Of a stretch of 64,000 bases of DNA, positions 49,067 through 53,378 are shown in pieces. Each line of letters starts with the position of its first letter. Position 1 is the first letter of the stretch. The DNA is from an uncultured Granulosicoccaceae bacterium (lineage in GTDB: Bacteria > Pseudomonadota > Gammaproteobacteria > Granulosicoccales > Granulosicoccaceae), in the NCBI GenBank assembly GCA_937931165.1, contig CALHCI010000104.1, positions 1 to 64,000 on the forward strand, in the 5' to 3' direction. A program made the translations under genes and the position numbers. The notes beneath the pieces were generated by a model. It searched no databases, had not been told where the DNA came from, and was given only the letters and a program-made list of their open reading frames with translations.

Positions 49067-49963
49067 TTGAATAATCAAAACAGCAATGCAAATATGCAAG
49101 CCTTCCTGACTCCTGATCGACTCGGTCACTACGTTCGTCTTGTACGCGCGGACAAGCCCATAGGCTCGCTGTTACTAATGTGGCCAATGCTATGGGCGTT
49201 GTGGTTTGTTTCTGACGGCCAACCGGACCCCGCCGTGCTGGTGGTGTTTCTGGTTGGTACGTTTTTGATGCGCTCGGCGGGCTGCGCAATTAACGATTAC
49301 GCCGATCGTCACATTGACGGTTCGGTGGCGCGTTCTAAAAACCGCCCGATAGTCTCGGGTGCAATCACGCCGCGTGAAGCGGTTGTCGTCGCTGCTGTGC
49401 TGGCTTTTTGTGCCTTTCTTCTGGTGCTTACCATGAATCAGCTGACCATTGCATTGTCTTTTATCGGTGTGGTGCTGGCGGCGGTCTACCCGTTTAGTAA
49501 AAGAGTCACCTATTGGCCGCAATTGGTTCTGGGGCTGGCATTCGGTTGGGCTGTGCCCATGGTATGTGCGGCGCAGACTGGCCGTATAGATGCCGTTGGC
49601 TGGATTATCTACGGTGTGGCCATATTGTGGGCGCTGGCGTATGACACGATGTACGCGATGGTTGATCGTGAAGATGATCTGAAACTCGGTGTTAAATCGA
49701 CGGCGATCTGGTTTGCAGAACGCGATGTGACAGCGGTGGCGATAACGCTGGCATCTGTACTTGCGATTCTTGCGTGGGTCGGGTTTCAGTGGAATACCGG
49801 GCTTGCCTACATTGTCGGGTGGCTTGGCGGTCTGGCCGTGGCGCTGTATCAGCTCTGGTTAATCAAAGACCGCGAAGCCGCCAGATGTTACCGGGCTTTT
49901 CAGATGAGTAACTACATGGGGCTGGCAATTTTTGCGGGCCTGTTTATCGACCGGATCAGCTGA
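49067..49963 (+). CDS. ubiA: 4-hydroxybenzoate polyprenyltransferase
   Basis: Integral membrane enzyme that prenylates 4-hydroxybenzoate in ubiquinone synthesis. About nine hydrophobic segments and both Asp-rich motifs are present: NDYADRHIDGSVARSKNRPI and YAMVDREDDLKLGVKSTA. The N-terminus YVRLVRADKPIGSLLLMWPMLW is diagnostic. About 298 residues from a TTG at 49067; ATG 49094 is also possible. chorismate lyase ubiC is not adjacent. The first GTPase gene follows after 12 bases, so they may share a transcript. Confidence 0.96.
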   Translation: MNNQNSNANMQAFLTPDRLGHYVRLVRADKPIGSLLLMWPMLWALWFVSDGQPDPAVLVVFLVGTFLMRSAGCAINDYADRHIDGSVARSKNRPIVSGAITPREAVVVAAVLAFCAFLLVLTMNQLTIALSFIGVVLAAVYPFSKRVTYWPQLVLGLAFGWAVPMVCAAQTGRIDAVGWIIYGVAILWALAYDTMYAMVDREDDLKLGVKSTAIWFAERDVTAVAITLASVLAILAWVGFQWNTGLAYIVGWLGGLAVALYQLWLIKDREAARCYRAFQMSNYMGLAIFAGLFIDRIS

Positions 49964-49975
49964 GTTGTACTATTG

Positions 49976-51739
49976 ATGGGTTCTCGTTTAACACCGATTA
50001 TCGAGCGTTATGTCGCAGAGCTTGATGAGCAGGACGGTCTGTCCGAACGCAGTGCGGCTGTGCGTGGTGAACTCACTACCTTAATGTTTGCCGATGCACT
50101 GGAGCGTAAAATAAAACTCAGTGACAGCCATCCAGACCATCCGCTGCAAGTGGTCGTGGTGGGGCCTACTCAGGTTGGAAAAAGCACACTGGTCAGTTTG
50201 CTGCTCGGGCTTGAAAACGCAGAAGCCAGCGCCAGAGCGGGATTTACCGTGCACTGTAACGGTTTTGCCTGCTTCACAGGCAATGACGCCTGGCTGGAAG
50301 CTTTCTTCACCGAAATGACTAAAAAGCCCATCGAGGCTTTGCAGCGATCGATACTTGAAGAATATTCCTATTCTGATGTCGCTGACTCACTGACGGCAGA
50401 GACAGCCGGTCGCTATAACAACACCACGTTGTGGGATACCCCTGATTTTGATTCAGTTGCCTCCTTTCATTACCGCAGTCCGGTGCTGCAGACAATGGCC
50501 CTTGCTGATCTGCTGGTGATGGTCGTCAGTAAAGAGAAGTACGCCGATAAATCCGTTTGGGATGCCATTGAAATGCTGGCGCTGGCCGGGAAAAATATCA
50601 TCATAGCGATGAACAAAACCCCGCCTGAGGTAAGAGACCAACTGGCAGATTCTGTGAATAAAAAGTTTTCGCAAATATCTTCCCGCTTTCCGGATGCCAG
50701 CGCACCGCAAGTGATGTTCATTGATGAAGTGGCCAACCCGCAAGCAGAATTGCGGGATACCGCAGATTTGCTGGAATTGAAAGACCAGATCACCAACGAC
50801 GTTAAGCGGGCGTCGATTAATTCAATGCAAAGCGGTCTTGATCAATTGGTTGCTGCGCACTGGCAGGACTGGGTGCAGCCGATATCTACTCGACATGCAC
50901 AACAGCAGCAGTGGAAACAAATGGTTCAGCAGACCAGTGTCTCGCTGGTAAACCGTTATGAGGCAGAGTTTCTTGATAACAGCAGTCGTCATCGTGAAAC
51001 GTTTCAGTTAGCGGTGGCGGAATTACTGGTGTTACTGGAGGTGCCCGGCATGGCTGAACCGTTAACCAAACTCAGGAACATTGTTACGTGGCCGGTGCGA
51101 AAAGTTTTAAGTACTGCCGCGCAACACAGTAGCGCGACTATCAATAAGCAAGACAAACGTACTGAAGAGCGGCGTTTACTCGAGGAATTGCTCGATCACG
51201 GTTTAACCACACTTGCCGTGCAAATCAAAGAACAGGATAAAAATCAGGATTGGTGGGCTGAGCTGGATGGAAAACTGAATGCCGCTTCTCCGGCAATCAT
51301 CCGGGGGTATCACAACGAGCTTGATAACTATCAAACCCTGCTGAAAGTGGAGACCGAGCGTGCAGCAAGAGCACTGTACACAAAGTTGCAAGAGCAGCCT
51401 GCCACGCTAAACAGCTTACGGGCAGCGCGTGTCAGTGCCGATGCAGCGGCTGTTGTACTGGCTGTGAAATCCGGCGGTTTGGGTGCGGCTGATCTGGTAA
51501 TAGCGCCGGCGATGTTATCACTTACTACCATGCTAACCGAAGGTGCACTCGGTCAGTATATGAAGAAAGTTCAACAGGACTTAAAAAATTACCAGAAGAA
51601 AGCAGTGACTTCACTGGTTAATAGAAAGCTTGCCATTAAGCTTAATGCACTCACGCACGAGGCGGGTATTTCTCCAGAGCAACTTAAACAAACCGCAGCT
51701 CACTATAAGGTTGCAGAGCCTGAGCGCGCCGATGTCTGA
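49976..51739 (+). CDS. Large GTPase A of an overlapping pair (dynamin-like?)
   Basis: 587 residues. The N-terminal G domain has P-loop GPTQVGKST (about residues 63-71), an unusual G3 segment DTPDFDS (about 154-160) in place of DxxG, and a G4-like NKTP (about 213-216). Next to G3 is VVSKEKYADKSVWDAIEML. A long helical region follows. A hydrophobic, Gly/Ala-rich stretch near 500-530 (LAVKSGGLGAADLVIAPAML) could touch membrane, as in dynamin-like proteins. ATG 49976 or TTG 49973 starts it. Its end overlaps GTPase B by 8 bases. I do not recognise a named family. Confidence 0.8.
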   Translation: MGSRLTPIIERYVAELDEQDGLSERSAAVRGELTTLMFADALERKIKLSDSHPDHPLQVVVVGPTQVGKSTLVSLLLGLENAEASARAGFTVHCNGFACFTGNDAWLEAFFTEMTKKPIEALQRSILEEYSYSDVADSLTAETAGRYNNTTLWDTPDFDSVASFHYRSPVLQTMALADLLVMVVSKEKYADKSVWDAIEMLALAGKNIIIAMNKTPPEVRDQLADSVNKKFSQISSRFPDASAPQVMFIDEVANPQAELRDTADLLELKDQITNDVKRASINSMQSGLDQLVAAHWQDWVQPISTRHAQQQQWKQMVQQTSVSLVNRYEAEFLDNSSRHRETFQLAVAELLVLLEVPGMAEPLTKLRNIVTWPVRKVLSTAAQHSSATINKQDKRTEERRLLEELLDHGLTTLAVQIKEQDKNQDWWAELDGKLNAASPAIIRGYHNELDNYQTLLKVETERAARALYTKLQEQPATLNSLRAARVSADAAAVVLAVKSGGLGAADLVIAPAMLSLTTMLTEGALGQYMKKVQQDLKNYQKKAVTSLVNRKLAIKLNALTHEAGISPEQLKQTAAHYKVAEPERADV

Positions 51740-53378
51740 TTTAACAATCCAGTCACTGTACATACAAATTGAGCAGCTGCAGACGGAACTTGCTGATAAA
51801 TCGTGGATAGAAGATTCCAGCGTAAAACTAACCGACACTTCTACTGCCGCTGATTTGTTTGAAGACTATGACAATCGACCTTTAGTCGTCGGGTTGTTTG
51901 GTGGTACCGGTGCGGGTAAAAGCTCGTTGCTTAACCGGTTGGCGGGTACTGATATAGCGCGTACCGGGGTCGTGCGTCCGACTTCTATGGAAATTACTGC
52001 TTATCTGCATGAAGATAAAAAACTTACTGCATTGCCGAGTGGTTTCCCACAACAAAATTTTTCAAGCATCAGCCATAGTGCCAGTTCATTTAAAGATGTG
52101 ATGTGGGTGGATATGCCGGATTTCGATAGTGAGGAAACGCAAAATCGAGATCAGGTATTGCAATGGCTACCGTATATTGACGTGTTGATCTATGTGGTTA
52201 CACCGGAACGCTACAAAGACGCAGAAGGCTGGCGATTGTTGCAGTCACACGGTTATCGCCACGGATGGTTGTTTGTAATGAATCAGTGGGACAGAGCGGA
52301 GAGTATTCAGCTGAATGATTTTCGCGAACTGCTTCAGGACACCGGCTTCGAGCAGCCGAAAATATTTAAAACCTCTTGTAAAGATCCACAGCATGTTGAT
52401 GACGAGTTCGCTTCACTGGCTACTCTGGTCGCGAGCTTGTCCGAACGAAATGCCGTGGAACAGTTGGAGCAATTTGGCTGGTTGCATCGACTTGATGTGG
52501 CTGACAAGCGCCTGCGGCAGCAGGTGAGTATGCTTGCAGAACAGGAAATTGAATTGGTTGATTGCTTTGACCAGCACTGGAATGACTTCAACACAGAAGT
52601 GACAACCAACTCGGCACTCGCCGTACGTGAATACAGTGAGCGGTTTGCACCTGCCGATCGATCACCGGTCAAGACCGTATTAAAATCGATTAACGGTGGC
52701 AAGCAGAGCAACAGCGAAGCATTAAACACACTGTCGCTGGTTAAGGAAGCGCCCTTGTTGTGGGCTGACTGGTCATCGGCCAGACTAAAAGACACGCTTA
52801 GCCGTTTTCAGTTGGCGGAGCAGGCGCATGGTGTGCCGGCTGTACGTCTGGTAGCCGCGAGTAAAGCGATTAAAGACACTGGTCGTCTTATCGGCCAGGA
52901 CTGGCAGCAAGTTGTGTCGAACGCAGTGGCTAATCCGGGTCAGCCGTGGCAGCGAACTTTGCACTCGGTTTGTCGGTGGCTGCAATGGTTATTGCCGCTG
53001 GCTGTGGGTTGCTGGATAGCGTTTCGGGTGCTTGGCGGGTTTGTCGATGGGGCTTCAGACAGAGATGCCTATGTTGGCGTCGATTTTCTTGTTAATGGTC
53101 TGATGCTCACCGCAATCGCCTGGCTGATCCCCCTGGTGGCCACGCATCTGTCAAAGCCGTCGGTACCTAAAACTGTCGAGCGATCACTGGGTCAGGCATT
53201 GCAGCGGGATCTGCAAAACTTCGCGGATCCTTATCGCGATAACCTGAAGCAGATTTCGCAGGAGCGCAGAGGTCTGTATGAGAAAGCGCTGAAGCTGATG
53301 AAAAAGACACAGCAAATGCAGTCGCGATTCAGTGTGCTCGAGAACACCGAGCTCGATGGATTGCTCATGCGAAAGTAG
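51732..53378 (+). CDS. Large GTPase B of an overlapping pair, with two membrane segments
   Basis: 548 residues from ATG 51732, inside the last codons of GTPase A. P-loop GGTGAGKSS (about 57-65), G3 segment DMPDFDS (127-133), G4 NQWD (184-187). The stretch VVTPERYKDAEGWRLLQ after G3 mirrors the one in GTPase A. A helical region follows, then two membrane segments (about 415-440 and 455-480; WLLPLAVGCWIAFRVLG and LMLTAIAWLIPLVATHL) and a coiled C-terminal tail. The layout (G domain, helical bundle, membrane part) resembles bacterial dynamin-like or YfjP-type GTPases. The overlap implies coupled synthesis and probably a heteromeric complex. Confidence 0.8.
   Translation: MSDLTIQSLYIQIEQLQTELADKSWIEDSSVKLTDTSTAADLFEDYDNRPLVVGLFGGTGAGKSSLLNRLAGTDIARTGVVRPTSMEITAYLHEDKKLTALPSGFPQQNFSSISHSASSFKDVMWVDMPDFDSEETQNRDQVLQWLPYIDVLIYVVTPERYKDAEGWRLLQSHGYRHGWLFVMNQWDRAESIQLNDFRELLQDTGFEQPKIFKTSCKDPQHVDDEFASLATLVASLSERNAVEQLEQFGWLHRLDVADKRLRQQVSMLAEQEIELVDCFDQHWNDFNTEVTTNSALAVREYSERFAPADRSPVKTVLKSINGGKQSNSEALNTLSLVKEAPLLWADWSSARLKDTLSRFQLAEQAHGVPAVRLVAASKAIKDTGRLIGQDWQQVVSNAVANPGQPWQRTLHSVCRWLQWLLPLAVGCWIAFRVLGGFVDGASDRDAYVGVDFLVNGLMLTAIAWLIPLVATHLSKPSVPKTVERSLGQALQRDLQNFADPYRDNLKQISQERRGLYEKALKLMKKTQQMQSRFSVLENTELDGLLMRK

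Follow-up and report, generated by a model that had tools for sequence, protein, structure and literature searches.

An overlapping gene pair of Granulosicoccaceae that probably encodes a two-subunit dynamin-like machine with a rebuilt G3 motif

What could a bacterium do with two overlapping genes for large GTPases, both of which carry an aspartate in place of the G3 glycine? This question is raised by an uncultured marine Granulosicoccaceae bacterium, from which we analysed the first 64,000 nucleotides of contig CALHCI010000104.1 (assembly GCA_937931165.1), hereafter the window. Genes A and B lie on its forward strand, share 8 bases and encode proteins of 587 and 548 residues, just as a preliminary description of this DNA had reported. 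Both genes are intact, show strong conservation and co-occur strictly, so that the pair is far beyond chance. A comF-like gene follows B on the opposite strand. The genes are arranged as follows:

49067..49963, plus strand: ubiA, separated by a 12-base gap from the ATG of A; this context is conserved in Granulosicoccaceae only
49976..51739, plus strand: gene A, open frame from the ATG at 49976 to the stop at 51739; predicted dynamin-like GTPase of 587 amino acids, no clear membrane span
51732..53378, plus strand: gene B, open frame from the ATG at 51732; predicted dynamin-like GTPase of 548 amino acids, two predicted membrane helices
51732..51739, plus strand: overlap of both open frames, 8 bases read in different frames

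The two genes are inherited together. Both occurred in 36 of 36 sampled Granulosicoccaceae, and among 274 gammaproteobacteria drawn, 20 had A and the identical 20 had B, with one more, incomplete genome giving a weak partial match to B; the survey of gene-pair conservation thus found the pair kept together in related genomes. In three members of the family (G028, G034 and G035), A and B lie far apart or on separate contigs, and both are nevertheless retained, which argues for a joint function beyond linkage. In 76 of 76 named loci, B follows A on one and the same strand. The distance matrices of A and B correlated at r = 0.94 over 10 genomes, a value uncorrected for species history to which we attach little weight. 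Overall, the co-inheritance of A and B argues that they work jointly. In several relatives of Granulosicoccus, A and B are separated by an opposite-strand gene for a CobT-like protein with a VWA domain (L145:9695-11578, minus strand; also L148, L150 and L155).

The closest named relatives are Granulosicoccaceae MAGs. Named loci outside the family belong mostly to Methylococcales (Methylobacter, Methylomonas, Methylovulum and Crenothrix), Sedimenticola-like organisms and Methylothermaceae, with one locus labelled Methyloversatilis. In a phylum-wide draw of 299 genomes, the pair appeared in the window's own genome only, which indicates that it is rare outside certain gammaproteobacterial groups.

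To which family might these proteins belong? In Pfam, MMR_HSR1 matched both above its cut-off (35.1 bits for A, 25.1 bits for B), Dynamin_N scored 26.9 on B against a cut-off of 27, and the IIGP profile, taken as a test for IRG proteins, stayed below its cut-off on B (23.5 bits versus 24) and covered residues 39–93 only. Neither NCBIfam nor PADLOC yielded a family above cut-off or at full length for either protein. The Pfam domains of YcjX and DUF2868–DUF3482 were absent at E values up to 1 in A and B and up to 0.01 in 30 homologues of each, and sequence searches of the PDB returned P-loop stretches and other short pieces only, whether the query was a single protein or a profile. Between themselves, the G domains of A and B align by BLASTP at E = 5e-7 (26% identity over 149 amino acids) and by profile-profile comparison with a probability of 98.9 and E = 1e-17. 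Of the gene duplication suggested earlier, a shared origin of the G domains is therefore supported, and past the G domain neither method saw any homology.

AlphaFold2 models, built from homologues of the window's proteins, reached a mean pLDDT of 78.4 for A and 82.2 for B. Against the PDB, Foldseek placed 5owv_C first for A (E = 1.8e-6) and 5oxf_C first for B (E = 8e-10), with BDLP, OPA1, mitofusin, LeoA, IniA and EHD proteins at lower ranks; the best matches of A include the bacterial dynamin pair 5owv, BDLP (2j69) and Fzo1 (9kfd). The top matches of both models thus fall into the dynamin superfamily, and the dynamin-like character, only suspected in the preliminary description, gains the support of the Foldseek check. 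Structural matches of the G domains to mitofusin, IniA, EHD and dynamin point to a dynamin-type large GTPase domain. With VIA-align, B matched Fzo1 in both G domain and stalk (Z 21.4, 300 residues, rmsd 3.4, spanning residues 1–539), and A matched it with Z 17.3 over 308 residues (spanning 1–579). In these alignments, a helical neck and stalk are built from both sides of the G domain, in A at an rmsd of 5.8 and partly at low pLDDT. As pLDDT in A drops below 50 in most of residues 357–392 and at 501–514, its stalk arrangement is uncertain, and what the model of A matches securely is mostly the G domain. Whole-length TM scores against PDB chains were low (0.15–0.48), as is expected of hinged proteins.

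Hydropathy agrees with the earlier observation that B has two membrane segments and A a hydrophobic Gly/Ala stretch. Kyte-Doolittle averages over 19 residues peak in B at 1.88 (residues 420–438) and 2.07 (452–470), where the model has helices at 405–440 and 450–473; the top peak in A is 1.70 at residues 492–510. The latter lies in a hairpin, PATLNSLRAARVSADAAAVVLAVKSGGLGAADLVIAPAMLSLTTMLTEGALG, which takes up the part of A corresponding to the membrane helices of B, is the most conserved stretch outside A's G domain and is modelled as helices 475–499 and 504–522 with a turn at low confidence. The two elements are located as follows:

51398..51562, plus strand: Gly/Ala-rich helical hairpin of A, residues 475–529, a possible membrane-touching tip (conservation, model, hydropathy)
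52989..53141, plus strand: two predicted transmembrane helices of B, about residues 420–470 (hydropathy peaks, model helices)

The two predicted hydrophobic helices of B would provide a membrane-inserting stalk element, and, judging by their order in the sequence, they would occupy the distal end of the stalk, as the paddle does in BDLP.

The nucleotide pocket departs from the usual pattern in two of its three motifs:

50162..50185, plus strand: A, G1 P-loop GPTQVGKS, residues 63–70; GPTQxGKS invariant in 30 homologues
50435..50455, plus strand: A, altered G3 DTPDFDS, residues 154–160; D154, P156, D157, F158, D159 and S160 invariant
50612..50623, plus strand: A, G4 NKTP, residues 213–216, base-specifying Asp absent; N213 and K214 invariant
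51900..51923, plus strand: B, G1 P-loop GGTGAGKS, residues 57–64; invariant save residue 61
52110..52130, plus strand: B, altered G3 DMPDFDS, residues 127–133; invariant in 30 homologues
52281..52292, plus strand: B, G4 NQWD, residues 184–187; N184, W186 and D187 invariant

Set against the canonical G1, G3 (DxPG) and G4 (xKxD), both proteins keep G1 with its P-loop, and the Thr of switch I is likewise conserved in A and B. The replacement of DxxG by DxPDFDS and its conserved continuation (VVSKEKYADKSVW in A, VVTPERYKDAEGW in B) are present as first described. Across 30 homologues of A and 30 of B, none of the DxPDFDS residues varies, and Asp takes the place of the G3 Gly in all homologues of both. 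Among wider homologues, D[T/S/M]PDFDS was found in 81 of 81 rows for A, which the same motif had helped to select, and DMPD[F/I]DS in 69 of 75 for B. Other MMR_HSR1 GTPases of the same genome with readable motifs have DxxG, and within this set DxPDxDS is confined to A and B.

A further asymmetry, absent from the preliminary description, concerns G4, which reads N[Q/H]xD in B versus NKxx in most A proteins. B has N-[Q/H]-W-D throughout the family, with an invariant Asp and with Gln or His for Lys. A keeps Asn-Lys and, in the source genus, has Pro at the Asp position; among 30 family homologues, residue 216 is Pro in 14, Asp in 10, Asn in 4 and Ser in 2, and the Asp occurs in 16 of about 80 wider homologues. 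With G3 devoid of its Gly and A mostly devoid of the G4 Asp, GTP hydrolysis is not assured. From these residues, we infer that B would serve as the principal guanine-specific engine; A may be less selective in the nucleotide that it binds, or may act as a partner G domain. The motifs diverge and the fold does not, so that it is by fold that the pair is placed in the dynamin superfamily, as a variant.

How does such a variant compare with known systems? The earlier statement that no described system has such a pair was too strong. Most bacterial DLPs are encoded by side-by-side gene pairs in operons and are thought to be heteromeric (PMC6104087), and an actinobacterium has a pair that shares the G3 signature (see below). 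Cj-DLP1 and Cj-DLP2 of Campylobacter jejuni (5owv, 5oxf), the best Foldseek matches, are likewise encoded by adjacent dynamin-like genes, but identity is only about 12–13%, B has two clear predicted membrane helices, and the altered G3 and the G4 asymmetry set the present pair apart; moreover, the assembly domain of Cj-DLP1, which binds the first helix of DLP2, has been described as Campylobacter-specific (PMC6104087). Mitofusin/Fzo1 and cyanobacterial BDLP resemble B in combining a G domain with a helical bundle and a membrane hairpin, but they do not form an operon pair of this kind. Their G3 and G4 are canonical. LeoA, from the LeoABC operon of enterotoxigenic E. coli, shares the bacterial dynamin fold (4aur is in A's Foldseek list), whereas its profile match is limited to the G domain: no full-length match to LeoA or LeoBC profiles was obtained, only G-domain stretches at E values of 9e-7 or weaker. 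In the literature, we found no paper linking YfjP and dynamin. Pairing as such is therefore not new; the conserved G3 change, the split G4 and the cross-phylum occurrence make this a distinct variant.

The actinobacterial case is an overlapping pair of Nonomuraea gerenzanensis (L218:3771-8083), found by tblastn in a plasmid search on a record of chromosome size; it shares both the G3 signature and the A-B order. G3 reads DTPDIDS in the first protein, which is without a strong membrane span, and DLPDHDS in the second, whose predicted membrane helices (430–448 and 463–481) lie near the positions in B. In profile comparisons, the first matches A (probability 98.5, 399 columns) and the second matches B (probability 99.5, 215 columns), and G4 shows the same split as in A and B, with SRVQ in the first and NQAD in the second. 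Such agreement in signature, order and soluble/membrane division indicates that these traits predate this family or have been transferred between phyla. The Nonomuraea pair adjoins sirohaem/cobalamin genes, and its first protein bears a long low-complexity N-terminal extension. The only other match of the plasmid tblastn search, in Azospirillum, was rejected as an unrelated single GTPase with a DLPG G3.

The Nonomuraea pair could be of the DynA/DynB type, and the pair described here may accordingly belong to that broad type. The dynamin-like DynB of Streptomyces, which contains two membrane segments and has DynA as its partner, acts at sporulation septa (PMC8748795). There too, two partners occur of which one has two membrane segments, as is predicted for B; unlike DynA/DynB, with which we compare it by description only, the present pair is gammaproteobacterial and has neighbours of its own.

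These neighbours differ between lineages. In 28 Granulosicoccaceae loci, ubiA lies upstream of A, and comF-like and ompA-like genes lie downstream. The position after ubiA, which had been thought possibly due to chance, is thus not fortuitous within this family, and the link is absent in other lineages. Elsewhere, among 42 loci with enough upstream sequence, a DUF2959 gene (PF11172) was present within 2.5 kb upstream of A in 22, and a small lipoprotein gene in 29. At genome level, DUF2959 was found in 13 of 20 genomes with the pair versus 22 of 254 without it, counts that mix lipoprotein and cytosolic forms and that we set aside as evidence of partnership.

A DUF2959 neighbour in relatives was beyond the sight of the preliminary description. 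A signal-less, cytosolic DUF2959 adjoins the pair at L221:1869-2543 and at 24 Methylococcales-type loci (e.g., L169:6741-7433); of the two DUF2959 genes in genome G283, one adjoins the pair. The DUF2959 protein of the window's own genome has the lipoprotein form (L220:2157-3035, minus strand). DUF2959 may be a partner in the lineages with the signal-less form, but the window's genome is devoid of a cytosolic copy. The small, conserved Cys-lipoprotein, of about 140 amino acids and encoded divergently from A, occurs at 33 loci of methanotroph relatives (L221:2687-3106 and L169:7436-7888, both minus strand), and the member tested had no Pfam match.

Putting together the predicted folds, the predicted membrane helices, the co-inheritance, the fixed gene order and the actinobacterial pair, we consider it probable that A and B form a two-subunit, inner-membrane-anchored bacterial dynamin-like machine. 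It is unlikely, in our opinion, that they are instead large TRAFAC GTPases in a regulatory role, with B as a membrane-bound switch, A as a scaffold and the stalk serving for docking. The altered G3 in both proteins and the loss of the G4 Asp in most A would suit such a switch, as would the Pfam assignment of both to MMR_HSR1 with Dynamin_N just missing on B. The G1 and switch I Thr are, however, invariant, B's stalk aligns with mitofusin/Fzo1 from end to end, and B's membrane helices are predicted within the C-terminal helical region, the place of the paddle in bacterial dynamins.

We give little credence to a defence module like LeoA, directed against phage or induced by stress. The LeoA profile of PADLOC does detect B (E = 8.9e-7) and A (7.8e-5), but only in the G domain, and the pair is present in every sampled family member, unlike patchy defence islands, amid a fixed housekeeping context (glutathione reductase-like, ubiA, comF and ompA-like genes) in nearly all Granulosicoccaceae loci, with no adjoining mobile genes. 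The least probable of the readings considered here is that the pair builds or maintains stacked intracytoplasmic membranes in methanotroph relatives. Methylococcales are known for such membranes, and many of the best 80 loci outside Granulosicoccaceae are theirs; yet all sampled Granulosicoccaceae have the pair too, as do Sedimenticola-like and other genomes, where no stacked membranes are known to us. Of the papers that name methanotrophs, intracytoplasmic membranes and dynamin together, none, judged by title, is about a dynamin in methanotroph membranes.

In the two-subunit dynamin-like machine that we prefer, B would be anchored in the inner membrane by the two-helix hairpin of its helical stalk and would be the subunit with the guanine-specific pocket. 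A would be cytosolic and would be kept at the membrane by B, probably together with A's own Gly/Ala-rich hairpin, and the G domain of A would pair with that of B. Binding and hydrolysis of GTP, for the most part by B, would then swing the stalks, so that the inner membrane would be tethered, bent or repaired, perhaps at the division site, if the analogy with Streptomyces DynA/DynB may be extended so far. It is tempting to go further and suppose that both subunits, with their rebuilt G3 (DxPDxDS), divide nucleotide recognition (Asn-Lys from A, Asp from B) and complete each other's catalytic cycles, that a cytosolic DUF2959 serves as their adaptor in methanotrophs, and that such pairs form a separate lineage spanning phyla; this fuller picture is speculative, and we regard it as rather doubtful.

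Few bacterial dynamins are known, and a strictly co-inherited pair bears on the question of why they occur in pairs. A fold can now be predicted for two proteins that match generic GTPase models only in the libraries searched. The invariant, unusual G3 and the G4 signature divided between the subunits make a direct test of subunit roles possible, and the presence of the pair in culturable methanotrophs renders its cell biology accessible.
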